A DNA stretch of 64,000 nt, from contig WFMF01000370.1 in the NCBI GenBank assembly GCA_011033025.1, positions 62,001 through 126,000 on the forward strand, given 5' to 3'. Below are positions 3,001 through 60,440 of this stretch, piece after piece (position 1 is the stretch's first letter; the number at the start of each line of letters is the position of its first letter). This DNA is from Beroe forskalii. Lineage: Eukaryota > Ctenophora > Nuda > Beroida > Beroidae. Position numbers and translations under genes: made by a program. The notes under the pieces are model-generated. The model was not told the origin of the DNA. It searched no databases and saw only the letters and a program-made list of their open reading frames with translations.

Positions 3001-5516
3001 TAGGTCCAGATCCAGAGTGAACAGGTTTTGGAGGGAAGAGGTGGACAGGGACTCTCCGATTCCCTCTGAAATGTGTGTACTAGTGGGGGTTAGGTCCAGA
3101 TCCAGAGTGAACAAGTGTTGGAGAGAGGAGGTGGAGGGGGACTCTCCGATTCCCTCTGAAATGTGTGTATTAGAGGGGGGGATAGGTCGAGATCCAGAGT
3201 GAACAGGAGTTGGAGGGAGGAGGTGAACAGGGACTCTCTGATTGCCTCTGAAATGTGTGCATTAGTGGGGGATAGGTCGAGATCCAGAGTGAACAGGTGT
3301 TGGAGGGAGGAGGTGGGCAGAGACTCTCCGATACCTTCTAAAATGTGTGTATTAGTGGGGGGATAGGTCGAGATCCAGAGTGAAAAGGTGTTGGAGGGAG
3401 GAGGTAGACAGAGACTCTCCGATTCCCTCTGAAGCGAGAGCGCATTGTAATACTTAAATGCAGTTATGATTATCAAAAAATATAGTGTCTTCAAGGTTTC
3501 CCATATTACGTGCCGATATTTGAGTTTCATGTTATCAATATTCTAGACTTATAATCATTAGAGCCGACATCGCAATTCACAAAGGTCTGATTTTCTCACC
3601 AAAGAACTTCTTGCTTCCCTTGGCATCCTCGAGAGTTTCTTCGATGAAGTTCATGCATTGAGGGTCTCCATTGGCTTCGTACCAATCTGACACCGCTATT
3701 AGACAGTCGGAGTGCTGACCCAACTCCTTAGCACACCTGAAATCATGTTACCTGTAATATCATTAATAATTATTTGTTATATTATTATTGAGGCAGGGGA
3801 TTTTAGGGGATACAGAGTTCGGGAATGCCTCACTTAATAATTGTATCTGACATTACCACGACATGATGCTCCTATTATGAAGCTATGAACAACACACGAA
3901 ACTTTTCACCTGAGTTTCCACCACAATTCTAAGAGCACACCTGTGAACTATCTCGGAGACGATCTTGTCTTGTCGTTCATACATGTTGGTCAGCAAGACA
4001 CTAGCGATATCAGCACGGTTACTGATGATAGCATGAGAGAGTGGCCTCCCCGTCTTGTCGGACTTGAACACACTGTACCCTGGAGTAAGAGATTATTATA
4101 GTTAGCAACAAAACGAAACAAAATCTTTGTTCCAAAAATTGAGACACTAAGAAGTAGTCCTTAATTTCCCAAAGAACATCCTTCGAAAAACATATTCAAA
4201 GGCCAGGGCCCAGGGGTGAATATTCACTCAAAGATATGAAAAAAACGTACCAAACTTGAATAGCAAGTACTCCACAAGGTCGGGGGTGCTGGTACATGCA
4301 GCTTGGAACAGCAGATTAGGGTACTTCTCTGGGCACGTGTCAGCAGGGAGATCCTTGAAACTGCCCTCCCTGAAATATAAGAAATTCTTGAGAAATGAGG
4401 ACTGGCAACAGGATAATATCCTGTTGCCAGTTATCATTTCTCAAGAATTTCACCTATCTGTCAGGATATGTGAATGTGGTTGATCATAATAAAGTAAATT
4501 GAACAATTGTCACAAGATAGAATTAAGGTTCATAAAATGGTCATTGAGATGGATCTTTCAGTGGATTAGAACAACAACAAACCATAAAATGGCCGACAGA
4601 GAGTCATCTTCATTGTCGCTCTCCTGACTCTTCACTCCACCATTTCGAACCTCTCCATTCGAACACGCGACAGAATCTGCGCCATTAGTGTGGGGGACTA
4701 CGACCTCGTCTTGTTCCTCATTCGAAAGTTGGACATCAGAAGTTTTAGCAGCTCCGATTTCAGACGTTCCATTGACACTTGGGCCCGGTTGAGGGCCGCT
4801 GATTCTTCTCACCCTCGATCCATTGCTTGCGCGGGCTTTCCGCTCATATTTGTCGCAGAAGAGAGCAAAATCGTTCCTCACTTTTTTGAGATCATCTCCA
4901 ATGGAACTGGAGTCACTGGATTCTGATTCTGTTTCACTGAACCCATCATCGTCCTCCTCTGATGCTGGATCCTTCGCCGCCTCTTCATCCTCCTCGCCCT
5001 CCTCTGAGCTACTAAGCAGGCGCCGTGATACTCTGGCAATAGTGAGCTTGGTCAAAGACTTCTTAAACTTCTTGGACTTCCGAGGCTTTTCTCTGGAGGA
5101 TCGCCTTGGAGTAATCTCCTCCTTTTCTTCATCTTCTCCTTTTTCAGGGGTAAGATCTGACTCTGCTGCATCCTCACTCGATCTAAACATGTGAATAAAA
5201 ATGATTAAGGCCTTTAAAACATGTAATCTATCGGTATAAGAACTGACGTTTCAAGAATTCATTTGAAGAGGACTCTGTGTAAAATTCAAGTGATTATTAA
5301 TCAAAAAACAACCGAACAAACCGTTCTACTACTTATAACTTGACGTACGCATTCTCGTCACTGGAGGAAGGTAGCCTCTTCTTCGACTTCCTCTCCTTCT
5401 TCGTCTTCTCCTCCTCCCCCTCCGATTCATCAGTAACTTGGTCGAGGAAGCTATGGTACTCCCCATGGTGACCGGCAACCTCGTACCGGTTATCAGTGTA
5501 ATACGTCCCACCAAAC
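81..5516 (-). CDS. Acidic ankyrin-repeat protein, C-terminal exons (gene continues off left edge)
   Basis: I do not recognise the orthologue. Ten exons were read on the minus strand: 5340-5516, 4583-5182, 4251-4369, 3941-4079, 3600-3736, 2630-2884, 2206-2428, 739-929, 420-590, 81-228. Each has AG/GT borders and all ten join in one frame. The first two exons are acidic and Ser-rich (SSSDEN, SSSEEGEEDEE, basic KSKKFKKS patch). Ankyrin repeats follow: NLLFQAACTSTPDLVEYLLF, GRPLSHAIISNRADIASVLL, GYTPLMLAVANG joined to LPAAVELLLEHGADPL, and TTALHLAAALGRD. The last three exons (YKKKEKDLQDK, KMRYIRQYF, PTKEMYSMISEKALE) match no family I know. The last exon ends with an in-phase donor at 81, so the 3' end lies outside the window. 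Ankyrin repeats mediate protein-protein contacts; a nuclear or chromatin role is only a guess from the acidic and basic tracts. Tandem arrays sit at two of its 3' splice sites. Confidence 0.8.
900..1540. repeat. 51-bp tandem array at the 3' splice site of exon 739-929
   Basis: About 11 copies of a 51-bp unit containing ACCTGGTGAAACACCTCATG and CATTCGTCATTCAG; ACCTGG recurs at 951, 1002, 1053, 1106, 1157, 1208, 1260, 1336 and 1489. On the minus strand the copy nearest the exon contains the polypyrimidine tract and AG acceptor (CCCCTCACTGCCAG), so the array is an amplification of the intron end. Other copies carry CACTGAATG instead of the AG. Confidence 0.85.
2822..3445. repeat. About 90-bp tandem array containing duplicated splice acceptor plus exon 5' end
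   Basis: Seven copies of a 90-92-bp unit, with CTCTCC at 2871, 2962, 3052, 3142, 3234, 3324 and 3415. On the minus strand each unit contains a TTTCAG acceptor-like site followed by the first codons of the ankyrin-gene exon 2630-2884 (reading GIGESLSTSSLQ then LFTLDLDL). The copy at 2884 is the one whose phase fits the upstream exon (3600-3736). Confidence 0.85.
4381..4451. repeat. 35-bp-stem palindrome in an intron
   Basis: Arms 4381-4415 and 4417-4451 pair at 33 of 35 positions around a 1-nt loop. It lies about 10 bp upstream (in transcript sense) of the acceptor at 4370 of the ankyrin-gene exon 4251-4369. Confidence 0.85.
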
Positions 5517-9988: not shown

Positions 9989-12900
9989 CTTTGGTCCTCG
10001 GAACAATCAACTCTTGAGACGACTCCTTCTCTTCTTCTTCCACACCATGGCCAGCTTCATCATTAGAAGTAACAGTAACGGTGCCAGGTGCCACCCCATT
10101 TTTCTCTCCATTAGGGGTCGGGTTGGAGCTGGACGCCTCCCCCATGTCTTCGTCAGAGGAAAGGAAATGGTTCTTCCATTTAGACACTTGGTTACCTGTT
10201 GTGGTAAGAGTTAAAAAAATAGTGAAACAATGTTTATTAATTTCATGGCGCATTACAGTCAATTCATAGAATAAATAATTATATCCGAGGAAAACTTGCT
10301 GCCCTTCTGAGATTTTGCTCTGATATAGTCATACATTTTGATATATTTGACTGGATTGGCCTGATCAGCAGTCATGTCACAATTACTGTTCAAGTGATGT
10401 GACTTATTTTGATCACCTTGTACAGCCAGTTAGACAAAAACGCTCCATACCCATAGTTTGCATAAGGGCCAACGGATATTCCCTGTTTGTAGCTTGGACA
10501 ATGGCCGTTCCATATCCAAACTACCAACATATTGCCAATTTGGACTCACTTCCGCACCTTTAAGCGAGCATACATATATCAGCTTAAATATTAAGTTCTT
10601 TTATTAGAAAAATTTTTGAAGTGATAATATCATAATATATCTGTCCAGGCCTATCCAGTGAGATCTAAGGACTAAAGCTATCAGAAAGCTGATGTGTAAA
10701 GATATGGGCTACATATGACTATATGATAAATAAATAAATAATTTATTAAATTAATAAGTTGATAAGTAACTTTATTAAATAATAATAATGAATCTTTAAA
10801 ATCTCTAATCTGGTTAGTTATGCACTGTCGTCTGCAAAAATTGTTAGACTTCTACGTGCACTTGTTAAACCTTCCTTAGACCATTTTCAACGAAATAAGC
10901 CCGGAGCCAACTTTTTCAGATGGGCTCGGCCCATTTTGAGCCACTCCCTTTGCCGAGTAATCGAACGATGTGAAATTCGATATCTCGACCTAGGAAGTTC
11001 GTAAAGACTTCGCTTATAGCTCAAACGAAGTGCAACCATGAACTTTCTATACGACTTGTTAATAGACACATGCGCTAAAATGCTGAGAAAATGTGTTCAG
11101 GTCAAAACCCATTTTTTATGTTCTCGCGACTCAATTATCATATCTACTTCTAGGAAGGTCGTACAGACTTCGTTTATAGCTCAACGTATCGCAATCACCT
11201 TGTCAATAAACACGTCATAATCTTAAATGCTCAGAAAATGACTTATGGACCAAAACCCATTTTTGGGTTACTGCAACTTATAATTTGGGCAATTTCCATG
11301 TTTCAACCTCATGTTCGTACAAATCTCGGTCGTGTGGAAATTCCAGAGGCATTCTCAGAACTCGCAAAACCTGTGTAAAAAGTGAAGGGCTTCATGCCCT
11401 CAGACATTAGGGTCCAACGGTGAGTTGTGACAAGTTGGCGTAAAAGAAACTCGAAACTTTAAGCAAGAGTGATTTTTCAAAACTGTCTTTGAAAAAACGT
11501 TGAGAAAAATGAATTTTCTTAAGTTTCAAGTTAGGTTTGGTAAATTTCAAGTTATAACGATTGCATGCATGAATCTTTAAAGTATTTCCTTATTTCTATT
11601 TTCAGATTTTACTAGAATATAACAGATGTATCAGAGACATTCCCCCTACTATGCCAACCCATTATCGATCTTTCATATTATGATTTATTGATTTAGTTTC
11701 TCGTATCGTATTCAAGATATTTACTCTTTTACTGTATAATAAACAGAAGCTTTCCCTGAACCTATTGCAATGAAAGAAAGCAATTACTCGACATATTATA
11801 GTAAGGATTAGTCAGCAACGTGGCGTATAATGTTGATTCGAAACTGAAACGTAGGGTTATACTTATACTTGTTAATGTAGCTACCTCAAAGTGGGCAACG
11901 GCGACTGTGAGTAATGGGGTCGACTTGGTACTCTATGACCACGATCAGTACCTATGGTCATTGGTCATAGGGGACTGGTGGTCATAGGGGACTGGTGGTC
12001 ATAGGGGACTGGTGGTCATAGGGGACTGGTGGTCATAGGGGACTGGTGGTCATAGGGGACTGGTGGTCATAGGGGACTGGTGGTCATAGGGGACTGGTGG
12101 TCATAGGGGACTGGTGGTCATAGGGGACTGGTGGTCATAGGGGACTGGTGGTCATAGGGGACTGGTGGTCATATAGGGACTGGTGGTCATAGGGGACTGG
12201 TGGTCATAGGGGGGGGACTGGTGGTCATAGGGGACTGGTGGTCATAGGGGACTGGTGGTCATAGGGGACTGGTGGTCATAGGGGACTGGTACCGGAATGG
12301 TCGATTAGGGGACTATGGTCGGTAATGGTGGCCCATACTGTTAATGTTATGATATATTGATATAAGGGGGACTGTACTATTTAAGCGATTTTACTGCCTT
12401 AAATTTAAATTCTACAAATCTTAATTTCATTCACTGTAATTTGTACCAAAATTCTAGAAAATTTTGTTTAAGTAAAGATTTATACATTTATACCTTTCTT
12501 TCCTTTCACTGCAATATTAAGGCATTCTATTTTCTCTCAATACAGATTCAGAATTTTTCAGCAGGAGCATCAGTGCAGACAAAATCAAACTTGATATGAT
12601 AAACAATTATCACTCGATAGACATTATAGGCATTTGTCGTCTTCCGTACATCTTCGACATCTTCTTCGATGTTTCCATCAGGAAAAAGGTCTTCAAAATT
12701 TCAGTGGAATCATCACACATCAAACTGATAGTTCTTGTTGACATTCGGAAATTACACGCCCTAGTTTTACTTTTTGTCTATTTCATAGATCCCAAATAAA
12801 TTGAATTAATGTTCTTGTTTACATCGGTATTTTAGGTTGAAAGAACGAGCATATTGCCTGATTTTTGGAGAAATTAAAGTATCGTCCTTAATAAATACAC

Positions 12901-15900
12901 ATCTTAATTTCTCATGACAATAAAAGTATATGTTAATTTTTCATGAAAATCGCGTCATGCACCTTTAAATCAGCACCATTTATCAAAATCAGTTTCTTTT
13001 ATTTCGTCACAGAGACTAATAATCATCATTAATCAGTATCAATATGCGACTATAATAGACAGTGATCCGATCATTGAGTTAAGAAACATACCGTCATTTA
13101 ACTTGACTAATCTCGTCAAAAATAGGAACAATGGGTATAATGAGTTAATCTAGTCCAAACGTCTGGCTTATAGGGAGGTGCCGCTCCAGATCCCTCATAA
13201 AGCAGTTATTTAGACTTTTAAAGACTACATTGATTTTAATCCGACCATTGTCATCTCGAAAATAGCTAAATATAAAAATATTTAATGAAGTCCTATTGGG
13301 ATTTCGAGTTCATTTACTCTGAACGTTTGGCTGCCGCCCCAGACCCCTTCTTAGCATTTAGCATTCTGTATAGTGAAAGAGTGAATAACTGCCGCGATTT
13401 TAGTTCGGCAAGATTACGTAGAAGAATTGACAAAATCCAACAAAAGGAGCTTCAATTTAATTCAATCCAAACGTCTGGCTTCTGGGGGCTGCAGCCACCT
13501 GACGCCTGCTTAGCACTGCACTTAAGTGGCTGCCGTCATTTTTCTTAGACCAGTCTTGACGAAAATGGGCAAGAATTGAGGTGAAATCTTATTGGGGCAC
13601 CACTTTTCAATCTTATCCGAGCTTCTGGGGACAGCCACCCCTATACCCTAGCACTGTACTTAAGTTGCTGACGTGATTTTCCTTCGACCAGTCTCACCGA
13701 AAATAGGCAAGAATAGGAGTGGAATCTTATTGAGACACCAGTTTTCAATCTTAATCTTATCCAAGCGTCTAGAGCAAAATACTGATAAAAGTTGTCGATC
13801 ATAATCTAATACATAATCTGAAACAGGCATAAAAATGGTGCCTGGCTGATATATCAGTCAACATTTGTCGAAAATCGAAATACAAAAAAAACAGGCCCTA
13901 AACTCGAATTTGGCTTGATTTTCATTCACATTGATACTTATTTAGTTATTTCAGAGAGACATGTCTTACTCTTACGGAACTGGAAGCGTGATATTGGTGA
14001 CCTTGCTTCTTATTTCAAATGTCGAAGGTTACATTTTTAGTACACATTTTGATGTATGATTTCGATATCATTTTAAGAGAGGTGATAATCATTTGCAAAT
14101 TGATATGTTTAACTGTCGCACCCTCCCCGCCACGAACCCAGTACACCATCCAGGTATTGAATATGATTTGTTCTATGTTACTTCCCAAGAAAAACATTCT
14201 GAGTCATTCAGCGGCGTACATGCAAAATTGATCGGAGATTCTGGACGTGAAACTGATCCTCACAACCTCGCTGGGCGCGGGTAAGTTAAAAATTTGAAGA
14301 AGAAGAAGTATTAATTTAATTGATTGATTGGTATTAGTTTCAAATTAATACACTTCCGTGATGACACACAATATCGTCCGTAGTTATTGCAGTTATCGTG
14401 CCAATTTTGGCCACACAAATTGGGATATGGCATTCAAAGTTGTTTTTTCCATCATATTGGCCGGTTTAAAAGAGAATTGCAACCAGTTTAGCTATTAAGT
14501 TTATGCCATAAATCATAATGGGAACTCCCATAAATAATTTTGCACCTATGCTCCTAAGTAAGTAAGTATGGCAATAAATCTACCCTCAAAGTGATGGAAC
14601 ATGCCCTGGCCTTTGCTAACTACCCCTCCCCCTCACTAAAGGAAAGAAGGACGAGAAGATTCGATGACAATGTGGGATAGAGACGTTGGTGTCCCATCGT
14701 TTGTCTGGATCCAAGTCAGGGGAACCGACGGATGGCGCATGACACAGGTAATAATGATAAAATTATACCACGCCTAGTTTCCGAAACGGGATGAAATGGT
14801 GCTGGCTCTTACATAATATTTATCCTTTCTGATAGGAAATCTTTGCTGTTACATTTCAGCCCAAAAAACTCTATTGAGAGAAAATTCTGTGAGAATTTCT
14901 GACAATCTGATAATAACCTTAGAAACTGAATTCAATGTTCTTTTAGTTCCAAGTAAAGAAGGACGGTGAGGAAACGTGGTACACTACCGAAGTTGTGAAT
15001 TATGATTTGGACGATTGGGCGGAAAGGACATTTCCCTTGCAGCCAGGTTGGTAACAGATTTTATTATATGTTGGACACCGTCACAACTATAGAGAAAATT
15101 CGTTGAAAGTGGAGCAATTGATCATGAAATCCTGCAGTAATGTCCCTCATCGGTTGGGCGGTTCAAGGTGTGCCAAAACGTGTATTCAGACCGAAACACA
15201 TAACCGGCAATGTTATATGGTTGGACATAATTTAAGCGCAGATAATTTTTGGATCCCCTTTTTTCTTCCGAGGCCTTAAATTGGCTATGTTGATTGTCGG
15301 ACCTATGGACTCAAGACCGCCGTCAAAATGTTGGTACACGTCCTGGCCATCCTGGCCAACTCATATCTCAAGCCCTAATTCTCCAAAATACGAGGGGTGA
15401 TCCCACCTAACACTTTCGGGCTTTGCCCATCTAATTTGATGCCATATTGTATAAACCCTTGGACTGCGTCAGTTGTTTCATTCAATTTGAACTGATTTAT
15501 CCTTTATATACTTCAACTCTAATAACTTTCGTACTGTATTCCTTAATCACAGCGAAGAGGTACCAGTTAACCGCGTTCACGAGTCGTGACGGCAACTCTG
15601 GCACAGATGACGATCTTCTCTTTACTTTAAAAGGATCCAATGGGATAACTCGGACAAGATCCCTCGACAACGACATTCAGGATGACTTCGAGTGAGCAAT
15701 GATATAATGTAGATACACATGCTTTAGTTCCATTATATAGTTATATGAACCGAGCATATTAAACGGCAGATGGGATGGGGACCTTGCTATCAGCGCCGAC
15801 TATCGCTGATCAGCACAGATTATCGCTGATCAGCTCAGATTATCACTGATCAGCGCAGATTATCACTGATCAGCGCAGATTATCGCTGATCAGCGCATAT

Positions 15901-18900
15901 TATCGCTGATCAGCGCATTTTATCGCTGATCAGCGCAGATTATCGCTGATCAGCGCCTATCGGCGGTATATACGTGTATCTGCGCTGTTTGGTGCCGATT
16001 GCAAGGTCGCCAACTGCCACATGTACTTCAGTACGCTGATCAGAAGTCAAGTACTGACCATGTACTAACCAGTACTGACCAGTAGTCTAGTACTGACCAT
16101 GTACTGAACAGTAGTCATGTACAGAACGTGTACTGAAAAGTAGTAAAGTTCTGACCAGAAGTCATGTACTTACCATGTACTGACCAGTAGTTGTGGAATG
16201 ACCATGTACTGACCAGTAATCATGAACTGACCATGTAATAACAAGAAGTCGTGTAATGACCAAGTACTGACCATGTACTGACCAGTAGTCATGCACTGAC
16301 TATGTAATGAGCAGAAGTCATGTACTTACCATGTCCTGACCAGTAGTTGTGGAATGGCCATGTACTGACCAGTAATCATGAACTGACCATGTAATAACAA
16401 GATGTCGTGTAATGACCAAGTACTGACCATGTACTGACCAGTAGTCATGCACTGACTATGTAATGACCAGAAGTCATGTACTTACCATGTACTGACCAGT
16501 AGTTGTGGAATGGCCATGTACTGGCCAGTAATCATGAACTGACCATGTAATAACAAGATGTCGTGTAATGACCAAGTACTGACCATGTACTGACCAGTAG
16601 TCATGCACTGACTATGTAATGAGCAGAAGTCATGTACTGACCATACACTGATGAATGGCCATAAAAGCATAAACTGGCCATTGCTAGTAGTCAAGTACTG
16701 ACCAGTACTGACCTGTAGTCATTAACTGACCATGTACTCACCAGAAGCCATGAACTGACCATGTACTGACCAGAATCCATGAACTGACCATGTACTGACC
16801 AGCAGCCACGAACTGATTATGTACTGACCAGCAGCCACGAACTGATTATGTACTGACCAGCAGCCACGAACTGATTATGTACTGATCATGTTTCATGAGG
16901 TGCTGAATTCTAATGCTGCACTAAATATGGCACTTTCCCCCAATTACTCTGTGTGACACTCTGATTTTACTATAAGAAGTATAAGTAATAAGGCAAGTTT
17001 TGGCATACCCCCGTACTTGGCTTAAATAAATTGGCTTAATTTCCCATTGTTGCGATTTCTACTCCGACAAGTTAAAATGGGTCATATTAAGAGGGTAGTT
17101 TCGTAGGGTGTTATTTCCCCCTGCAATCGATGATTCGATTTCCATGATAACCCAGCCCTCGCCCAGAACCGGGGCTACCGATAAGTTTATTTTCTACGAT
17201 ACAGACATCGGCGATCTTGAATGCATTGAAGTGGAAATTAAAGGAGACGATGGATGGAAAGTCAATAAGGTGACTACGTTTGATATGGAGTTTTACTGAT
17301 ATGAATTTTTATAGTATCTCACGCTTTCGAACGCGAACAAAGCTCATTTGTAATTTTGAAATTGATATAGACGGTCTAATTTATTCGTCAAGGAAATTTA
17401 ATTTAAATACTAAAACGACTATTTTCCATTATTTTCATACAATTTCTAGATTGAAGTTCAGATACAAGATGCTCAGAGGGTGTACACAACTAAGACTCTC
17501 GAAACTTGGCTCGATGATGATGTCACCAAACTGTTCTGTGATCTCGTGGTTGAAGGTTCGTCGAAGTTACTTTCTTTGCTTTCATTTTTTCATATCCTTC
17601 AATTATATGTCGTACGAGAAAACCCGTTGGGTTTTCTCTTTAATTGGACGTATATATTCAGTAGGACGTACAATAAATTGAACGAAGGTATTGATGCATG
17701 ATGCAATTTTTTGTTGCTGGGGTATGGGTGCAACGTAACGAAATTACGAAATATTTACATAGGATTTGGATATAAATAAAAAATGTTGCAGATTTGGCGA
17801 TTGCAGATTTGGCGATTGTGAATTAATGTCGAGGACACAACAGTAAATAAGAAGAACCCAAGAACAATGACCGTTTTCTAATCCAAAGTTCAGATTCGGA
17901 GAAAAGATGGGCAACAAATTTGAATCCAAGCTCATTGAAATCAATATTGTGCAAATTTTCATCTGTTTAGAACCCGCTTCTTACTTGAGTAATTATGAAT
18001 TCCTCCTTCTGTCGAATCCTCGCAGCAAACCATCGAAACTACTACAAATATCTTCATACGAAACAATTATCACTGATTTTCACAATGGAACTAAATGTTC
18101 AAGTCTTACCTTTTCTTCTACAATAGTGATTAGAGTTGATAGCGTTATGTCTTAAACTTTTACCAAACTCGAAAATTCCATTGAGAACGTAAATTATGAC
18201 TTTAAACAGTTAAAACGTTTCCAAAGTAAACAGTTACGAAATGGCAGATTCTTCGTTAAAATTTTTTTTTTGAAAACGAAAATAATATATATCATTATAA
18301 TATTTACAATAGCACATCTGTAATATCAAAAAATACTTCTCTTGAAAAAACGAGCTCATAGAGCTCATGAAATAATCAAAGTTTCGATACGAAACAAGCA
18401 AATTCAAAATCACTTTCGTAATTTTCATTGTCTTTACAATTGTATTTGGAATTGGACCGTGATCCACGTACACATAAAAGAACAAGACGTCTTATCATGA
18501 AAGCTATTTTGCATTTCATAAAGTTTGTTACGCATGAATAGTCTTGGCTAGTTTTGTCCGAGATTCGGCTGCAGAGGACCTTAAGGAAAGTTTTTGCCTC
18601 CATGCCGGAGCCTCCCGTAACCGAGAAAACAAGGGGGCAGAACGTTCCTTGTTCCACATTCAGAATGCGGTCGTTGTAGGAACGCCGTTTATCCTGTTCC
18701 GCCCTCTCGTACAACTTCTTGGTAGGAATTTCTTTGTATGATTCTGCATTTGGGTTCATCATCTTAATGTCAAAGAACGCATTCTGGCCATCCCTATAGA
18801 AACCTCTAGCCCGAATGTCTGGTCGAGCTTGCTCACCAGTCAGTGTCCCTAGTCTGGCGAAGGTTTCACCCTCAAGTGGCTGAAGCTGGGGCTCCACCTC

Positions 18901-21900: not shown

Positions 21901-22767
21901 TGTAACCGCTTAATGTATACACTGGTGTATCGTAATGGAGGCCGAGGGGGAGCAATTTTTATACTAAAAAAGCTGCTTATATTATCTAAACTAGTCGGTT
22001 CCCGTCCTACGGACGGCGAATGATGGCAGCCGCATGAGCTAACGGCCACATGTCCCTTTGACAGTGATTTGACCGATCGAGTTTGGAGGGGAAATTCGAA
22101 ACTTGAATTTCTACGAAAAAAAAAGCTTCCCACGCCCCGAATGGTAACCCAATATTGCCGACAATATTCTCAAAACCTTTACTCATCATAAGCAACTCCA
22201 TAGCGAAGGAATTTTGAAAAATTCGAAAATCTATTTTTTTCGAAAAAAGGGCGTGGCCTCCCACGCCCCTTAGGGTGACCCAATAATTCGGACAAAATTC
22301 TCAAAATTTTATTCATCATACGCAACTTGATGGCGAAGGAATTTTGAAAAAATTCGAAAGTTTAATTTTTGCGAAAAAAAGGGCGTGGCCTCCCACGCTC
22401 CTCAGAGTGACCCAATAATTCGGACAAAATTCTCAAAATTTTTATTGATCATTAGGAACTCAATGGCGAAGGAATTTTGAAAAAATTCGAAAGTTTAATT
22501 TTTGCGAAAAAAGGGCGTGGCCCCCCACGCCCCTCAGGGTGACCCAATAATTCGGACAAAATTCTCAAAATTTTTATTCATCATAAGCAACTCGATGGCG
22601 AAAGAATTTTGGAAAAATTCGAAACTTTAATTTTTGCGAAAAAAAGGGCGTGGCCCACCACGCCTCAGGGTGGCCGAAAAAATCTCATATTATTTTTCTG
22701 ATGTATTATAAAGTTTTGCAACACGATGAAAAAAGAATTTCGTTTGCCTACTTGAAACGAATCGCCA

Positions 22768-32615: not shown

Positions 32616-34817
32616 TCAATTAGTTCTTGATAAATCAATTAGGTGCCTCATTGTTGGTCTACCATGGGGACAGCTCCAAGGCCGATCCATATCTGCCATG
32701 TGATGCAATATTTTCTTCATTTCATCATTACACAATGCAGTTCCAATCATAACAGCAGAGCGGCAAGCCCTAGATGCAAACATTCTATGAACTTTTGATG
32801 GGCGTAGATTTTCGATGTTCACAGATGTTTCATCAGATAATAACCAAAGAAGCTCTTCAACATCTGACTCATCAAATATTAAGAACTCGTTTCTAGGGAC
32901 TGAAATGAGAGAAACCTTGTTGCCAGGTGTTTGATCATCATCACAGGCGAATTCAAATCCATTTTTGTTGAAGACATGTTGATGAGATAATAGCAAGTCT
33001 TCCTGAGCACCATTTAAGCTCAATTTCTTTGGGCAAATAAGTTTTTGTGTCTCTAGTTTTGTCACAGCCTTAAGATATTCATACCTATATTTTTCATCAG
33101 TGGCATGCTGATCAATAATGAAAAGGTTATTAACAAGTTTGACAATGATGAAGCCTAAATTAAATTGTCCAATGATTTTCATTTTCCGAAACATATATTT
33201 ATCAATATGCTGGGTGAGCTCCTGTGCAGCATCATTTGATGAAACAATTTGATGCTTGAAATGAATATCTGTGGTTTTATTTGCACATTGCCCCAGTTTT
33301 AAATGTTGTTTTGTAAGTTGATTTTTTATCAAGTTTAATGAACAAAGTAGTGGAACTTGTCTTGCTTCATTATTTGCCATAGGTCTATCAAGTTTTTTAA
33401 CATAACTTTTATTTCCATTTGTATCACAGTAAATCTTATACCTATCAGTACATTTTTCAGGTTCCATGATATCTATATTATGGATCTCTAATTTTTCCTC
33501 ACTTGCAGCACAATTCTCCAAATTATCAGAAATTCCAAAATTTTTTGTGAGACTTAGATGAGAGGACTGTTTTGAAAGGGGTTGTTTTTTAATGGAATGC
33601 AGGGTTATGCTTTTACTATCTTCAATTATTTCTTTTGGTTCTGAATTATCATTATCCATGGTTTTACTGCAGCCTGCATTGTCATAATTGGTATCACATT
33701 CTGACATTTTGGCACTTTCATTGTTGAATTCAACTTTTGAATTCTTGTCAACCTCAACAAAATTCAAAAGTTTCGGTATATTTTGTTCTTCATAAATACC
33801 AGTGTATTTTTGGAATACTGATTCAATATATGTTTGGAGAGACTCTATCAATTTATCTTCATTGTCAATGAAAAGCTTGCGCTTGTCAGGACAAACGTTA
33901 ACATCAATCTTTTCTTTAGAAATATCAATCACTATAACACAAATAGGGTATTGAAACTTTTCAAAAGACTTATAAACTTGATTGACCATTTTTGAGAGCT
34001 TGTTATGATCACAAGGTCTTCCATTAATGAAAAAATATTGCCTATCTGCAGAACCTCTTCCATGTTTTGTTAATGGTTTTGATATGTAACCATTTATCTC
34101 AAATAATGATGTTGTAAGATTAATCTCAACCAAATTCCTAAAAATCATGGAACCTAAAACATCAATGATATTTTCTTTTATAGTTGATTTCCCATGAGTT
34201 GAGAAGACCACTTGCTTATGCTTATTGACTAAATTTACACAATGTATCCTGGTATCAAGAGAAATCATAGCATATGCTTGTAAGGAATCAATAGCTTTAT
34301 GATATTCTTTCTTGATATTTTTAATAAATTCTTTGTGTCTAACAGGCAGTGAACTAAACAGATTTTCGATTGAAATTGTGGTGCCTTTGGGTCTAGCTTG
34401 AATGCTGATTTCTTTAATTTTTCCAAGTCTATCGAATGAAACAGAACTTCCAATAGATCCAGTTGATGTTAAAACAGACAGATCACCCATGGCACACAAT
34501 GAACTTAAAGCTTCCCCTCTAAATCCATAAGTGGAAACATCTGATATATCATCAAAATCCTTTATCTTTGATGTGTGATGTTTCATTGTCAAACCATTGA
34601 AATCTGCTTTCTCAATGCCTTTGCCATTATCTGCAACTTCAATGCCCTTAAGCCCATGTTCTTTGAATGTAACATTGATTGAATTAGCATCAGCATCAAT
34701 TGAGTTTTCAACCAATTCTTTAACAGCAGTTGCAAGAGTCACAATAACTTGACCAGAGCAAATGTTATGAACTGATTTCTTATCAATAGATTTTATTTGT
34801 GGGGCCGCTAGCATCAT
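32616..34817 (-). CDS. PMS2: DNA mismatch repair endonuclease PMS2 (PMS1 homologue), intronless
   Basis: An intact 733-codon frame. The N-terminal GHKL ATPase motifs are all present: KELVENSIDADA (E37, Mg/ATP binding), DNGKGI (63-68), TYGFRGEALSSLC, and GTTISIENLFSSLPVR. Residues about 365-530 are a low-complexity linker. The C-terminal domain has the MutL-alpha nuclease motif DQHATDEKYRYE (DQHA-x2-E-x4-E, near residue 569), ACRSAVMIG and CPHGRPTMRHL, which complete the metal site. These motifs separate PMS2 from MLH1 and MLH3-type shortened forms. The partner would be MLH1; the pair nicks the newly made strand during mismatch repair in the nucleus. It is shorter than vertebrate PMS2 (about 860 residues), mostly in the linker. 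The start MMLAAPQIKSIDK fits the family N-terminus. One exon in a gene that usually has many suggests intron loss or a retrocopy, but there is no decay. The coding strand is AT-rich. Confidence 0.96.
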   Translation of the reverse strand: MMLAAPQIKSIDKKSVHNICSGQVIVTLATAVKELVENSIDADANSINVTFKEHGLKGIEVADNGKGIEKADFNGLTMKHHTSKIKDFDDISDVSTYGFRGEALSSLCAMGDLSVLTSTGSIGSSVSFDRLGKIKEISIQARPKGTTISIENLFSSLPVRHKEFIKNIKKEYHKAIDSLQAYAMISLDTRIHCVNLVNKHKQVVFSTHGKSTIKENIIDVLGSMIFRNLVEINLTTSLFEINGYISKPLTKHGRGSADRQYFFINGRPCDHNKLSKMVNQVYKSFEKFQYPICVIVIDISKEKIDVNVCPDKRKLFIDNEDKLIESLQTYIESVFQKYTGIYEEQNIPKLLNFVEVDKNSKVEFNNESAKMSECDTNYDNAGCSKTMDNDNSEPKEIIEDSKSITLHSIKKQPLSKQSSHLSLTKNFGISDNLENCAASEEKLEIHNIDIMEPEKCTDRYKIYCDTNGNKSYVKKLDRPMANNEARQVPLLCSLNLIKNQLTKQHLKLGQCANKTTDIHFKHQIVSSNDAAQELTQHIDKYMFRKMKIIGQFNLGFIIVKLVNNLFIIDQHATDEKYRYEYLKAVTKLETQKLICPKKLSLNGAQEDLLLSHQHVFNKNGFEFACDDDQTPGNKVSLISVPRNEFLIFDESDVEELLWLLSDETSVNIENLRPSKVHRMFASRACRSAVMIGTALCNDEMKKILHHMADMDRPWSCPHGRPTMRHLIDLSRTN

Positions 34818-35745: not shown

Positions 35746-35755
35746 ATTATGTTGA

Positions 35756-38700
35756 CGTTGATACTAAAAGGTGGAACCACCCGAAACCACCCGAAACCAC
35801 CCAACCCACCCGAAACCACCCCCGAAACCACCCAACATAACTCCGAAACCACCCGAAACCACCTGAAACCACCCGAAACCACCCGAAACCATCCGAAACC
35901 ATCCGAAACCACCCAACCACTTGAAACCACCAACCCACCCAACCCAGCCAACGGTGGGTTGGTTTCGGGTGGTTTCGGTGGTTTCGGGTCACATTTAAGT
36001 AAAATTTTGGGTCGTTTCGGGCTGGTTTCGGGGTGGTTTCGAAATTTTAGCATAAATTGGGGAAATTAAAACACCGAAACCACCCGAAACACCCGAAACC
36101 ACCCGAAACCACCCAAAATTCATATTTTGGGTTGGTTCGGTGGGTTGGGTCGTTTCGGGTAGTTCCAAACAAAGGTAAAATTTTGGCTCGTTTCAAAATT
36201 TTTGCATACATTGGGGAATTCTAACTACCAAAATGACCCAAAACGACCCAACCCACCTGAAACTATCCAAAATCCATATTCTGGGTGGGTTCGGGTGGTT
36301 TCGGGTAGTTCAAATTTAAGTAAAATTTTGGTTCGTTTTGCGCTAGTTTCGAAATTTTTTGCGTAAATTGGGGTATTCAAACCACCTGAAACCAGCCGAT
36401 TCCACACAAAATATGAATTATGCACTTTGTGCTGTTTCGTATGGTTTCGAAACAGCCCGAAACAACCCAAAACAACCCAAAACAACCCACAACAATACGA
36501 AACCACCTCAACGATGAATTTTGGGTTATGGTGGACTGACGGTTTCTAAACTGGCAATTGTGATCATATCAATCATTCTCCTCCGATATGTACATTTTGA
36601 TACTCTGTCGATTTTACGTTAACTTAGTGTGTAGGTACCATTACTCCAATCTTCATTATATGATGTATAGCTCTGTTACCAAATAAAATGAGGAAATTTG
36701 GTAACTTTCCGAAATTTAATGATCACATGCAATGATGAATCATGAACTGATCATGTGCCACGTGCAATGTGCATGGATTACGTTTACGAGCACAATTGCA
36801 TGGAAGTAGTGGCATAAAGCTCTGCAAATTCTCAAATATTACGTAGTCATAGACCAGAAATTGTGAGACATCTGAATTCCGAAATTTATATCAACGGCTG
36901 TGCTGAAATTCAGCTTGCTGTAGGTACGATATAAGTTATTGGATCATGCTGAAAATCAAAGAGAGGCTTGCAAAAGAGATGAAATATCACACACAAACTC
37001 GTCCATTCGTTAGGTATAGTTTTTATTTTGTTACAATTACATGCGCTGTTTCTTAATTAGTTAATTGCCAAAACCTCGATACCATGTCCGTATTACCCGA
37101 CATAGGTACAATTCAAGGGCTGCCTGTAATAACTTATCATTGCACAATACACAAGTAACATTTGATACACGTCTGTAAGTGTACATTGTGGGGATTTCTA
37201 TAGTCCCACCGCCCACGTGATTATACATCAAGTAACATTAACAACAAAATATAATGTTGGAATGTAGTATTTGAACATTTTCATAAAGGTGAATAAGATG
37301 AATAAGATGAACGTACGGTCGAATTACATGCAAAAGGTGAATATAAGTGCACGGGCCGTCTGAGCAATGAAAGTACTGTAATGCAACGAAATGAAGGATT
37401 TACGCAACCAATGACACATTCGCGATATTTCCCTAACTGCCGCTGAACTTGCCCGGGCATGTTATGTATGTCAGCGCGAAAAAATAGGCGCAAGAATTGT
37501 TACTGTTACTGACAGTGTCAGGGGGCATATTGTTCGTGTGGGACTTACTATTTGTGCGCGATGTTACTCTCGGCAAAATCTTCCATCATTTCAAAACAAA
37601 TGTCAGATGTTTCGTTGTGAATTATATTTTGAATGTTTTAATGAATCAGAATTTGCACACTCGGGCTCAAGTAAAGTGATGCAATCATCATAAGTGATAG
37701 TGTTGTTTTAAGAACATTTTGGGTCAAAAAGTGTTACCACGCATGGTTTTCAAAAGTTCAAAGCACCTTTGCTCCTTTACTCTTTACAGTAAAACTTCTC
37801 AAACGTTGAATGGTCGTTTGGTTTGCCGTAGACTACAGCCCCCAGTGTGGACGATTTTTCTTTACAAGAACTACCTATTTCTCTGTAGATTAAAACCATA
37901 TATGCTATTACCCGGCCACTGAGGATCTTTCGTGAGCAATTTCACCCTTTCAACTTATTTTACAATCTGATGCTTCTGACCTATGATTTATGAAGATACA
38001 TATCAATAACGAGCTAGGCCGTGGCTCGTTCTTCGTAGCTCAAGCTGCCACAGGTCATCAATAAGTCAATACACGTCTTGTTCCTGATTAACGATTTTAA
38101 GTTGAGCTCAGTGTTCAACCCATGTTAATAGTGATAATATAATAATGCTGTTATTTCTCCGAACCTCGCTCTTGCATTGAATAGTCGTTGTATTTCGCCA
38201 GAAGAACTTTCTGTTGGTTTTAAAATTCTTTGAAGATTTATACTCAAACTTTCAACATTTCCTTTCTAGAAGGGTAAATCTCTCAAATAAGCTCCTGAGA
38301 ATGATAGGTATTGGATAATGGATATATCACAGTCAATTCATTGGCCCAGACTATTATTCAGTGTCACATGAATATAAAATCTACCGCAAAATTCGCTCTC
38401 CAGGTATTATACATATTATTGATACACGTATGGATTGGGTCACGCTGAATTTCAGCAGAGCCGTGGACACTGGACATATCCATGAGGAATCTCAATTCTT
38501 ACTTGCACACACGAAGTGAAATAGCCCATGTCAGTGTCAACTCACAACTGTGCAACATGCTGGAGGATGGAAGTCACGCTACTGATACTGTACTACAGTT
38601 ATACCATCCGAATTGGAAACTTTTGCCATGGGCTTTCCTTGAATTCACAGTGTATCGGGTTGATTCATGTGGGTTGGGTGGTTTCGGGTGGGTTGGGTGG

Positions 38701-39574
38701 TTTCGGTGAGTTGGGTGGTTTCAGGTGGCTTCGGGTGGTTTCGGGTGGTTTCGGTTGGTTTCGGGGCTATATTGGGTGGTTTCGGGTGGGTTGGGTGGTT
38801 TCGGGTGGTTTCGGGTGGTTCCACCCTTTAGTATCAACGAAAATGTTGTAACAGAGGTGCTACACTTTTAGACGATAATCAGATTTTCCAACCTTATCCC
38901 GACCAATTGAAAAATTTATTGACAGGGAATAGTATCAACAGTCGAAACTGGGTGGTTTCGGGTGGGTTGGGTGGTTCTGGGAAGGTTGGGTGGTTCCGGG
39001 AAGGTTGAGTGGTTTCAGGTGGGTTCGGTGGATTCGGTGGTTTTGGGTGGTTTCGGGTGTTTTGGGTGGTTTCGGGTGGGTTGGGTGGTTTCGGGTGGGT
39101 TGGGTGGTTTCGGGTGGGTTAGGTGGTTTCGGTGGGTTGGGTGGTTTTGGGTGGGTTGGGTGGTTTCGGGTGGGTTGGGTGGTTTCGGGTGGGTTGGGTG
39201 GTTTCTGGTGGGTTGGGTGGTTTCGGGTGGGTTGGGTGGTTTCAGGTGGTTTCGGGTCGTTCCACATTTTAGTTAAATATCAGCTGGTTTCGGGCTGAAG
39301 GGGCTGGTTTCGTATTTTTGACAAATGTTATAGTAAAAACAATGTTTTGGGTGGTTTCGGGTGGGTTGGGTGGTTTTGGGTGGTTTCGGGTGGGTTGGGT
39401 GGTTTCGGGTGGGTTGGGTGGTTTCGGGTGGTTTCAGGTGGTTTCGGGTGGTTTCGGGTGGTTTCGGGGCTATATTGGGTGGTTTCGGGGGTGGTTTCGG
39501 GTGGGTTGGGTGGTTTCGGGTGGTTTTGGGTGGTTTCGGGTGGTTTCGGGTGGTTCCACCTTTTAGTATCAACG
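35756..39574. mobile_element. 3.8-kb TIR element with minisatellite termini and 10-bp TSD
   Basis: Both ends begin CGTTGATACTAAAAGGTG and run into the same GGAACCACCC/GAAACCACCC minisatellite in inverted orientation. The direct repeat ATTATGTTGA flanks the element exactly (35746-35755 and 39575-39584). The left arm extends to about 36520, the right arms are at 38660-38845, 38945-39275 and 39340-39574. A spacer word GTAAAATTTTGG...TCGTTTC recurs inside the arms. The middle (36520-38660) has no transposase, so it is non-autonomous. A 9-11-bp duplication is the usual mark of Mutator-like transposons; class assignment is by that alone. A second right-end sequence at 38819-38841 (GGTTCCACCCTTTAGTATC) indicates nesting or internal rearrangement. 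Confidence 0.75.
36520..38660. other. Interior of the TIR element, no gene recognised
   Basis: Several short frames on both strands, none longer than about 75 residues and none with a recognisable domain. No minisatellite sequence is present in this part. Confidence 0.4.
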
Positions 39575-39840
39575 ATTATGTTGATTTCTGAGGAAAGAAG
39601 AGACTTAACTGTTAAACTGTGAATCATCAGTGGGTACATTGCTGGACTTCAGGGGGTGTTAAATCTGCCATACATGCCATGAGGTGGATGCATGAGGAAT
39701 GAGGATACAAGCTGCCAGGCAATACTTCTTGGTTATGCAGAGAATTCATTCAATCCCCTGAATTGTGAAGTAACTATACACAATATGATATATACTTGCC
39801 CAGGCTTCTTCAAATACACTGTAAATAAAATGCATATAGA

Positions 39841-48876: not shown

Positions 48877-51800
48877 AAATCAAATCAAATCAAATCAAAT
48901 GTATAATGAAAATAATCATCTAAAATATCCTTTCCCTGTTAATTCTACGAAAAATCAACTATTCACAATTCTAAAAGTTTGAATTATCCCGTATAAATCC
49001 CAGTAGAACACAAATTTATGAACTTTTTTCTAGCAACAAATGGATTTTCCATTAAAAATTTATTATGCCGGACTTTATTATCCAAATAGCTAGGTCCCTC
49101 TATCTTTGACAAAACTTCACTCGACACTTCCCAAAAATTCCAACTTCCTATACTATCTTTATTCTTCAGTTTAAACTCCTCCAAGTTAACCTTGAAATCA
49201 TTGACCGAATTCGATAGCTTTACTTCATTAGGAAGCTTGTTCCAAAAGTTAATTACCCTATTAGTTAAAAATGTTTAGATAAATTTTGTACTTTAACACT
49301 TCCCTTACTAACCCTCATATCAGAAACAAGTTTTAATCCCGACCTACTCACATTATACATACTTCCTATACATGACTCACCATTTAAAGCCTTAAACGTT
49401 TCGATTAAATCTCCACGATTTCTACGTTCCGCTAATGTAGTTAAGTTGAGTATATCAAGTCGCTCAGAATAAGGGAGGCGAGGGTTCCTATCTCATCAAT
49501 TAACCTGGTAAATCTTCTTTGTACACTTTCCAGCGCTAAAATCAAATTCCAACTCCCATGCTCAGCAACTGGATTCCACAACTGAACGCAATATTCAATA
49601 TGTGGCCTTATCAATGATTTATAAATAGCAATCATTGTTTTCCTATCACGTAAAATAACATTTCTAGCTATCCAACAAATCATTTTATTAGCTTTACTGA
49701 TCGATGAGTTTATCTGATCCGACCATAACATAGACGATGACATTATTACGCCCAAATCCTTTTCTTGATCGTTATCACACATGCTCAATTCAACACCATC
49801 GACAGTATAGCTATGTTTAGGGTTATCATTTATATTAACGTGTAATACTTTACATTTTTTAGGATTAAACTTAAGTAACCATAAATTCTCCCATTTTTCT
49901 AATCGCTCGATGTCCTCTTGAATTGTATCGTAATCATTAACATTTCCTATAAGCTTTAAATCATCAGCAAAAATTTTGATGGAGCTCTTTATATTATCCG
50001 GTAAGTCATTGATAAAAAAGGATGAACAATAACGGACCAAGAACCGAACCTTGCGGCACTCCTGACAAAACCGTCTTTATTTCAGATTGCTCACCCTCAA
50101 CATTTACATACATTGTCCTCTCAGATAAAAAGTCCCTTATTATGTTCAATGTTTTACCGTTGATACCAAGAGCCTCCATCTTACTAAGTAGTCTAAAATG
50201 GGGCACCGTATCAAATGCCTTACTAAAGTCAAAATATAGAACATCTACTGGATCACCCCCTTGCAAAATATTCAAAATATTATCAAATGATTCTAATAAG
50301 TTGGATAAACATGATTTACTTTTTACGAAACCGTGTTGATGAACTGAAATTTTACTCTCAATAAATTCTACTATGTGTTGCCTCACAAGTTGCTCGTAAA
50401 CTTTGCAAATAATACAAGTTAATGAAACGGGTCGATAGTTCAAAGGGTCAGATTTACTGCCCTTTTTAAATAACGCCGTTACACTGGCAGTTTTCCAGAT
50501 TTTGGGCAACGTGCCCGAATCTGTGCATTTTACGAACAACTTAGTGACAGCATTTACAAAACTATCATCATCTGATAACGACTTTAACAATTTAGGATGA
50601 ATTCTATCCGGACCATAACTTTTGAAAATATTCAATTTAGCTAGTTCATTCTTAACAGCAACAGATGTTATAACTAAATCATTTATAGATGTAAATACCT
50701 TATCATCAGGCCTAAATTCTGGCAATGGTCCTTGTGGTTCTTGAACAAATACTGAACTAAAGGCATTTGCCAGAATTTCTGCTGATTCTTTAGGATTTTT
50801 TTGAACGTGAACCATCTCCATTATCTAGATTTCTTATGCAAGTCTTTGCTTCTCTATTGTTTCTTAGATAAGAGTAGAATGACTTACAATTCAATTTTAA
50901 ATTAGCAGTTATCTTCCTCTCATACTTAACTTTTAATTTAATATTCTCTTGGTCGTATAGTTCCTCGCGAGAAATTGCATAGTTTCTATTGTTGGATCCG
51001 AGTCAAAGTCTGACCAAGCTTTATCTTTTTTGATTCTCAAACGCTTTAATGTGGATGTTCCCCATGGCAACTTCACAGGTCTTCCATTGCTGTGAACCGC
51101 AACTGTCGGTACTACAGCATTGAAAGACTGTAACTTTTCATGAAGCTCATTCCACATTTTTTCTACGCATAAATCGTTGGAACTATACTCCCAATTAATA
51201 TTATCATGACTGAAATTTGTCAAATCAGATGGTAACACTTTACCCCATACTTGCTTATGTACTATCTTATTAGTGATTTTCTCCAATGAAACTGCAAGTT
51301 CTATTTTAACGCAAACATGATCACTCTTCCCAAGCTTTGGGAGGATATAGACGGAGTGTAAAATTGCGTCATTTGTAGTGAGAACTTGATCGAGAAGACT
51401 TTCTTGTAGAACTCCATTAACAAGACGTCTCCTTGTTATTTCATTGGTAAAATACCACGAAAGGCCCTTCACACTAAATGTATCTAAATATTTACTTTGA
51501 TTCAATAATATTTTATTCTTAGAATCTTTATTGCTATTTACAGACCCCGTCGCCCATGAAACATCAGGCAAATTGAAGTCTCCTAACAAAAGTACTTCAC
51601 TAAAATTAGAGTCATCGCAAATATTTTCAATGCTAGATAAAATTACTTCATTTTGTCTGTTATTAAGCGACATGGATCTATAAATACATGCAATACAAAT
51701 TCTACCACTTTGTAGCTGGACGTCTATAGCCAGTGAGTCAGGTGCATCTTTAAAGGCTTTTACTAACTCAACATTTAAATTATCTTTGTAATAAATTATT

Positions 51801-52022
51801 GCACCTCCACCTTCACTATAAATGTCCACCACATTCCGAGTCAATATTGAAATTTCGATCATTCCTCACAAAAACAATAACCCTTCGATTTCCAATTTCG
51901 GCATCGAGAATATCCTTATTGAAATGAGTCTCGTTAATACATATTATATCAATTTCATTTTCCATCAAAAAATGTTTTAACTTATCAATTTTATTCAATA
52001 GCCCGCATGCATTAGTGTACAA
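48877..52022 (-). mobile_element. CR1/L2-like non-LTR retrotransposon (ORF2), dead copy
   Basis: From 52022 downwards: an AP-endonuclease domain (NACGLLNKIDKLKHF, INETHFNKD, LLLGDFNLPDVSW, SDHVCVKIE), then the reverse transcriptase (YGPDRIHPKLLK, KKGSKSDPLNYRPVSLT, FDFSKAFDTVPH, GVPQGSVLGPLLF, IKIFADDLKLI with the FADD catalytic box, LGVIMSSSMLWSDQI, YKSLIRPHIEYCVQLWNP), then the C-terminal tail ending at 48984 (FARK-type NPFVARKKFINL). The reading is broken by frameshifts near 51840, 50930, 50825 and 50030, so it is not active. The 3' end is a tract of about five AAATC/GATTT units at 48877-48900, a microsatellite tail of the kind CR1/L2 elements carry. Confidence 0.92.
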
Positions 52023-59573: not shown

Positions 59574-60143
59574 TTAATAAAAAGGTATTTCACTTACTTT
59601 TTCAAGCAAAATGAAATGTTATTTTCTGGTGTGACTTTCTACCTCATGGCTCAATCGATATTCGAGATTGCGCCAGCCCTTACAATAGAGATAAAGATTT
59701 TCCAAGTTTCAGTCGGGTGTTACAGAGAATCTCAACAGATATCCTTAGAAGAGAAAAGATCCACCTTGTTTTTGCATTGTTGACTGAAGTGCGAGCAGTC
59801 ACGTGAACCACAGGGGTATAGGGAGCAGGGAGGATAACGGAGGTACTTCTTACACCTCGCTTTAACTACATTAACTACATACTTGTTGAGTTCTCTACGA
59901 ACTTCAGTTTTCATGTATTAAAAAGGGGCATTTTTGGTCATAAGCGTAGGGCTTAAAAGGGGTTTTTCGACCCTAACTCGAAAATGAAAGGATATATTAT
60001 ATAAGTATAAGAGATAACTATAATTGTATAATGATGTTGATTTTGCTATCACTAGGTATTCAATGCAGATAATTACATAATTAATAATTAATGATTAATG
60101 ATTTTAGATCAAATAAGTATCTTGCTTCTAACGTCAAAAATCA

Positions 60144-60227
<84 letters not shown>

Positions 60228-60440
60228 AAATGTGATTTGTACTTATGGAGATTAAAATAAACTCTTTGTTTTCATAAACTCTTTGTTTTCATATGACTTT
60301 GAAACCATGCTATACCCCCATAATTTGCTCATTTTGCATACCGTAGTGTACTGGTTGAGTTCTCTACGACCTTCAGTTTTCATTTATTAAAAAGGGCGTT
60401 TTAAAAAGGGGCGTTTTTTGCCTTAAACACCTTTAAGTGC
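59574..60440. repeat. Dispersed AAAAGGGG repeat and (GT)n microsatellite
   Basis: (GT)n with about 40 units at 60146-60225. Segments around 59880-59990, 60355-60430 and 60870-61070 share GTTGAGTTCTCTACGA, TTAAAAAGGG and GGGTTTTTTCGACC words, so they are copies of one repeat. No gene. Confidence 0.7.

Follow-up and report, generated by a model that had tools for sequence, protein, structure and literature searches.

The 64,000-nucleotide stretch of Beroe forskalii DNA analysed here (the window) carries a 3,819-bp element at positions 35756–39574, about 0.94 kb upstream of a gene with MutL-type domains (32616–34817, minus strand). This gene, which we take to be a PMS2-like mismatch repair gene, consists of a single 733-aa open frame in which no intron is visible. 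LINE remains in several frames, with matches to reverse transcriptase and endonuclease, are found at 49441–51865 (minus strand), and further tandem arrays occupy 934–1534, 2810–3433, 11962–12331, 15789–16885 and 22129–22672.

The element is bordered on both sides by an exact 10-bp target-site duplication, ATTATGTTGA (35746–35755 and 39575–39584). Its left terminal inverted repeat begins CGTTGATACTAAAAGGTGGAACC and is identical to the right one for 49 bp (35756–35804, plus strand; 39526–39574, minus strand); past this exact part the inverted ends are still 86–90% alike over about 180–200 bp. Behind them both arms contain arrays of a tandem 10-bp unit (AACCACCCGA in the left arm, GGGTGGTTTC in the right) on which a higher-order period of 19 bp is superimposed, so that, as in foldback elements, short tandem repeats make up the long inverted arms. 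A preliminary description of this DNA had reported these coordinates, the 10-bp duplication, identical inverted ends of 18 bp and minisatellite arms behind these ends. The coordinates and the duplication proved exact, the ends are longer than reported, and the existence of a TIR element with repeat-array ends and a 10-bp duplication is confirmed.

The left arm (35756–36536, plus strand) is a dense C-rich minisatellite up to about 36149 and is composed of mixed-orientation modules beyond. The centre (36537–38671, plus strand), about 2.13 kb in length and 93–98% identical to other copies, is that of the group designated below as subfamily A. It is followed by an inner right arm (38672–38839, minus strand) closing with an internal copy of the terminus (38817–38839, minus strand; one mismatch in 23), and by a right end unit of 735 bp (38840–39574, minus strand) which is present singly and consists of a spacer starting with aaaatgttgtaacagaggtg, then G-rich minisatellite, then the terminus. 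A degenerate end-like motif was seen by eye within the right arm (39259–39273, minus strand). In the last right arm the G-rich strand contains ten G-quadruplex patterns, where mononucleotide shuffles average 1.6; we give no weight to this excess, since it is a consequence of the repeat itself.

The genome searched comprises 216 Mb in 1,134 contigs, which were counted individually whether allelic or not. The outermost 26 bases of the element, with up to three mismatches allowed, matched 210 places (103 forward, 107 reverse) and the reversed control pattern matched none, so that these matches are not due to chance. The first 355 bp of the element gave at least 290 matching pieces (40 of 414 candidates scored). 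The preliminary description considered the 2.1-kb centre to be unique and to lack a transposase; while no transposase was recognised in it, the centre is not unique, as a 2,101-base query matched at least 14 places in full and a 15th over 2,098 bases (93–100% identity, window included; 40 of 224 candidates scored).

The same description had proposed a search for other copies with the same ends, for 9–11-bp duplications, for empty sites and for a related autonomous copy with a transposase. The first of these is answered by the 210 end matches. For the second we examined the window copy, 20 loci of about 10 kb (ranks 2–21 of the 355-bp matches) and three widely spaced end pairs picked from the 26-base matches (L030, L031 and L032). 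Both outer ends were present, at up to four mismatches, in 16 copies, and 15 of these, L031 and L032 among them, possess a perfect 10-bp duplication; L030 has both ends and no duplication. In sequence the 15 duplications vary from copy to copy; their A+T content is 71%. Arm length also differs among copies. Left out of the count were three copies in which an outer end is lost or eroded (L017, L019 and L027), five in which one outer end was recognised at the threshold (L010, L013, L014, L018 and L024), and the partial copy L040; beside the eroded end of L017, nine of the ten duplication bases agree, as judged by eye.

Since the window is rich in minisatellites, one might suppose that the arms are ordinary minisatellites which expanded on either side of a segment, and that the repeat flanking them is a coincidence. 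We consider this practically impossible in the face of exact 10-bp duplications in 15 of 16 copies, 210 sharp ends, and sites at which the inserted sequence is missing. One copy (L023) is inserted inside the left arm of another. When its flanks, joined with the duplication included once, were searched against 25 sequences, 21 of these aligned in one piece over the join (88–96% identity); the other four are L023 itself, L010, L018 and L029. In a second search all 12 copies matched; none of the six alignments printed is broken at the join, and in three of these 101 of 104 bases are identical. Because the host is itself an arm, this site shows the absence of the inserted copy and not that of the minisatellite. 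A second copy (L011) is inserted in what we take, from a resemblance in the endonuclease part, to be a LINE. Three uninterrupted places, all of them without arms, match the joined site over its full 360 bp (93–94%). In both cases the counterparts belong to further copies of the repeat that acts as host, and are not alleles; together with the other copies of the element they show that the family has moved within this genome. Elsewhere in the window, the joined flanks of the L016 insertion match 60027–60296 (92% and 80%, one piece running across the join) beside a TG microsatellite, which by its sequence is perhaps another counterpart site.

The copies have the left 1.2 kb in common, and the remainder divides them into subfamily A (the window copy, L009, L011, L012, L015, L016, L021, L023, L028, L031 and L032) and subfamily B (L020, L022, L025 and L026); L030 was placed in neither. 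All 11 two-ended copies of subfamily A have the inner right end, in each case with an identical stretch of 20 bases (aaaatgttgtaacagaggtg) after it, whereas at up to four mismatches it is absent from all four copies of subfamily B. The partial copy L040 (C294) has three right end units in tandem, of 681, 662 and 656 bp, which are 96–99% alike when gaps are disregarded and to which the single 735-bp unit of the window is about 96% similar. The fixed flank in subfamily A and the triplet in L040 show that the inner end belongs to an end unit able to multiply in tandem. The preliminary description had read the internal right end as implying repeated moves or rearrangements; the end is indeed there, but, being fixed throughout subfamily A and bordering a unit of about 0.7 kb, it records no event of this particular copy. 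Alternatively, the element might be a composite of nested insertions, a second copy having landed next to the first, with the inner of the two right ends as the older. An intact terminus does lie inside the right arm, and nesting does occur, as L023 illustrates; the constant flank of the inner end in subfamily A and the tandem multiples of the end unit in L040 nevertheless make such a composite very improbable. Nesting could have been the origin of the first end unit. Right arms with one and with three units illustrate an early step in the conversion of a transposon end to a tandem array, comparable to that described for Tetris.

No transposase was recognised in the copies read. Ten of 18 listed centre ORFs (63–121 aa; nine from the window, nine from L026) were compared with Pfam, without a significant match. 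The autonomous copy proposed in the preliminary description was sought in the three widest-spaced two-ended copies (L030, L031 and L032), whose ORFs were inspected by eye, and was not found. When the 16 two-ended copies were scanned against four references (two per subfamily) for foreign stretches of more than 300 bp, nine had none, four of these being the references themselves. The other seven carry inserts of 381–3,984 bp, which are mutually unrelated except for one pair (L016b and L030a, 79–81%) and therefore do not point to any longer coding form shared by the copies.

Only one insert contains an ORF of more than 150 aa, that of L016 (5614–6555, minus strand; 314 aa), for which no significant match was obtained in Pfam, NCBIfam or PDB. 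Its product belongs to a high-copy protein family with at least 142 genome matches (126 of 1,057 candidates scored), several places being 94–96% identical. By eye, none of the near-identical relatives outside L016 lies near a listed end. Two that are more distant (33% and 44%) do lie less than 10 kb from an end or from a piece of the centre, which chance would permit in a family as common as this. We accordingly rejected this ORF as the element's own gene; judging from its relatives, it is probably part of an unclassified mobile element inside L016. A 1,128-aa ORF near one end in L018 (C157), again without a significant match in Pfam or NCBIfam, was taken to be a neighbouring gene because no second end was found in about 15 kb and its next best relative in the genome is 41% identical. 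At this place (L018 3714–7786, minus strand) it overlaps an ORF of 256 aa; the pair shows no significant Pfam match, has a Cys-rich C-terminus, and possesses further, less similar relatives in other parts of the genome.

The genome contains Mutator-like elements (MULEs). The PF10551 domain was found at 56 places at E ≤0.01, 46 of which exceed the curated cut-off. Of six MULE regions read, four (L034–L037) have recognisable ends, together with matches to MULE and FLYWCH domains (in L037 in two overlapping frames); no convincing TIR was found in the other two (L038 and L039). As judged by eye, the TIRs of L034–L037 consist of a small number of imperfect repeats, each roughly 13–26 bp long, their target duplications are 8–9 bp long, and a few of the outermost bases are not inverted. 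In these last two respects they differ from the foldback family with its 10-bp duplications and symmetric ends; taken as a whole, their structure rather resembles that of Tm1 (PMC3169594). The terminus of the family was found in none of the six regions. We also compared 121 of the 210 ends with 98 MULE places, obtained from the 56 PF10551 places and 99 matches to one MULE after pieces of the same locus were dropped; two more places, whose contigs bear none of the listed ends, were not entered. None of the 98 places lies within 15 kb of these 121 ends, the nearest being 15.2 kb away.

We regard this family, with its defined ends, 10-bp duplications, uninterrupted counterparts of two insertion sites, two subfamilies and lack of a recognised transposase in the copies read, as foldback-type DNA transposons that are non-autonomous and probably depend on a transposase made elsewhere, most likely that of a MULE. 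Since an autonomous copy was not found, the connection with MULEs is drawn from the length of the duplication and from the architecture: the likeliest mover is a MULE transposase working in trans, because short repeats make up the TIRs of all four MULEs whose ends could be recognised. Such a transposase would recognise the terminus of 23 bp, possibly along with the repeats that follow it, excise the element and insert it at a staggered cut of 10 bp. As arrays of end-related sequence, the arms would lengthen and shorten through unequal exchange or slippage; the right arm can also multiply as a unit of about 0.7 kb that itself ends in an intact terminus.

It is possible, though we think it unlikely, that the same kind of element is moved by the transposase of another superfamily, either P-type, as in Galileo, or an undescribed one. 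The absence of MULEs near any of the 121 listed ends would fit this, as would the symmetric ends and 10-bp duplications, which are unlike those of the four MULEs with recognisable ends. The duplication in Galileo and the P superfamily is 7 bp long, as against 10 bp here, and one P-type domain gave no match in the genome and none in the controls either, and is hence uninformative. Against a mover from another superfamily, the 10-bp duplication falls inside the range of 8–11 bp given for MULEs (PMC6446971).

More speculative, and to our minds rather doubtful, is the idea that the arm repeats are transposase-binding arrays which spread as end units, and that the mover is an undescribed lineage with strict 10-bp duplications. 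In that event a single element could possess several alternative right ends, since every unit of about 0.7 kb bears a complete terminus; the element might then alter its length whenever it moves and give rise to new satellite arrays.

A foldback structure whose arms are built of sub-repeats characterises FB of Drosophila, TU of sea urchin and FARE of Arabidopsis, and the likeness of the present family to these is one of architecture; it is set apart from them by its host and presumably by sequence and duplication length. The preliminary description had suggested that termini made of tandem repeats may bind transposase cooperatively, as do those of some Mutator-like and foldback elements; to liken the element to these is reasonable. 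It had also stated that no described family with this terminus was known to it. This may hold for the sequence: in the available portions of the literature on foldback, Rehavkus, minisatellite-TIR, ctenophore Mutator and Mnemiopsis TIR elements no description of the terminus was found, Repbase lying outside the scope of the comparison. It does not hold for the kind of element, as tandem-repeat or minisatellite ends with duplications of 8–11 bp have been described for Tm1 (PMC3169594), Tetris (PMC4079207), and Phantom and Rehavkus (PMC6446971). This is thus a real, non-autonomous foldback-type family, apparently new in sequence and of a kind long known. The available parts of two further papers (PMC13359780 and PMC2871265) held nothing decisive for the comparison, and that of a paper dealing with ctenophore loop-anchor motifs (PMC12221973) held no support for a link of these motifs to the element.

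According to the sections available of the paper describing it, the Drosophila virilis foldback Tetris/DAIBAM (PMC4079207) similarly has long TIRs with internal tandem repeats which expand in tandem, a middle of non-coding appearance, and a transposase whose source was not found. Its duplications are 8–9 bp long, or 9–10 bp in rearranged copies; it is set apart by its description, with a repeat of about 220 bp compared with one of 10 bp and a higher unit of about 0.7 kb here. Tm1, a Mutator/Foldback element of root-knot nematodes (PMC3169594), resembles the family in having composite TIRs with a variable number of tandem repeats, of 13–15 bp, and in having groups without a transposase alongside elements with a Phantom-like one. 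Its duplications are mostly of 9 bp (8–10 bp in 45 of 53) and its outermost 7-bp motifs are asymmetric, whereas here the duplications are of 10 bp and the ends symmetric. The 10 bp found in 15 of our 16 two-ended copies lies within the 8–10 bp of Tm1 and Tetris. Rehavkus, in the accessible part of its account (PMC6446971), is MULE-related and has a minisatellite adjoining the TIR; it differs in its 9-bp duplication, compared with 10 bp in all 15 perfect duplications here, in having its minisatellite before the 3' TIR rather than in both arms, and in the PHD finger of its transposase, no transposase having been recognised in the copies of our family that were read. Phantom MULEs, as presented there (PMC6446971), share duplications of 8–10 bp and, in aphid members, a minisatellite, and have FLYWCH among their zinc fingers, as do MULEs of this genome; no transposase by which the family could be assigned to Phantom was recognised in the copies read.

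The present case contributes a foldback family with clear limits, for which both a nested insertion and uninterrupted counterpart sites are known, in an animal genome where four of the six MULEs read have short-repeat TIRs. Because both occur in one genome, the question of why MULE and foldback ends become repeat arrays, whether as binding sites or as a by-product of repair, can be tested there.

A very divergent mitochondrial COX1 lies at L033 (C1134). By eye, AGA/AGG codons seem to stand at two or three of its conserved-Arg positions, which suggests a non-bilaterian code.
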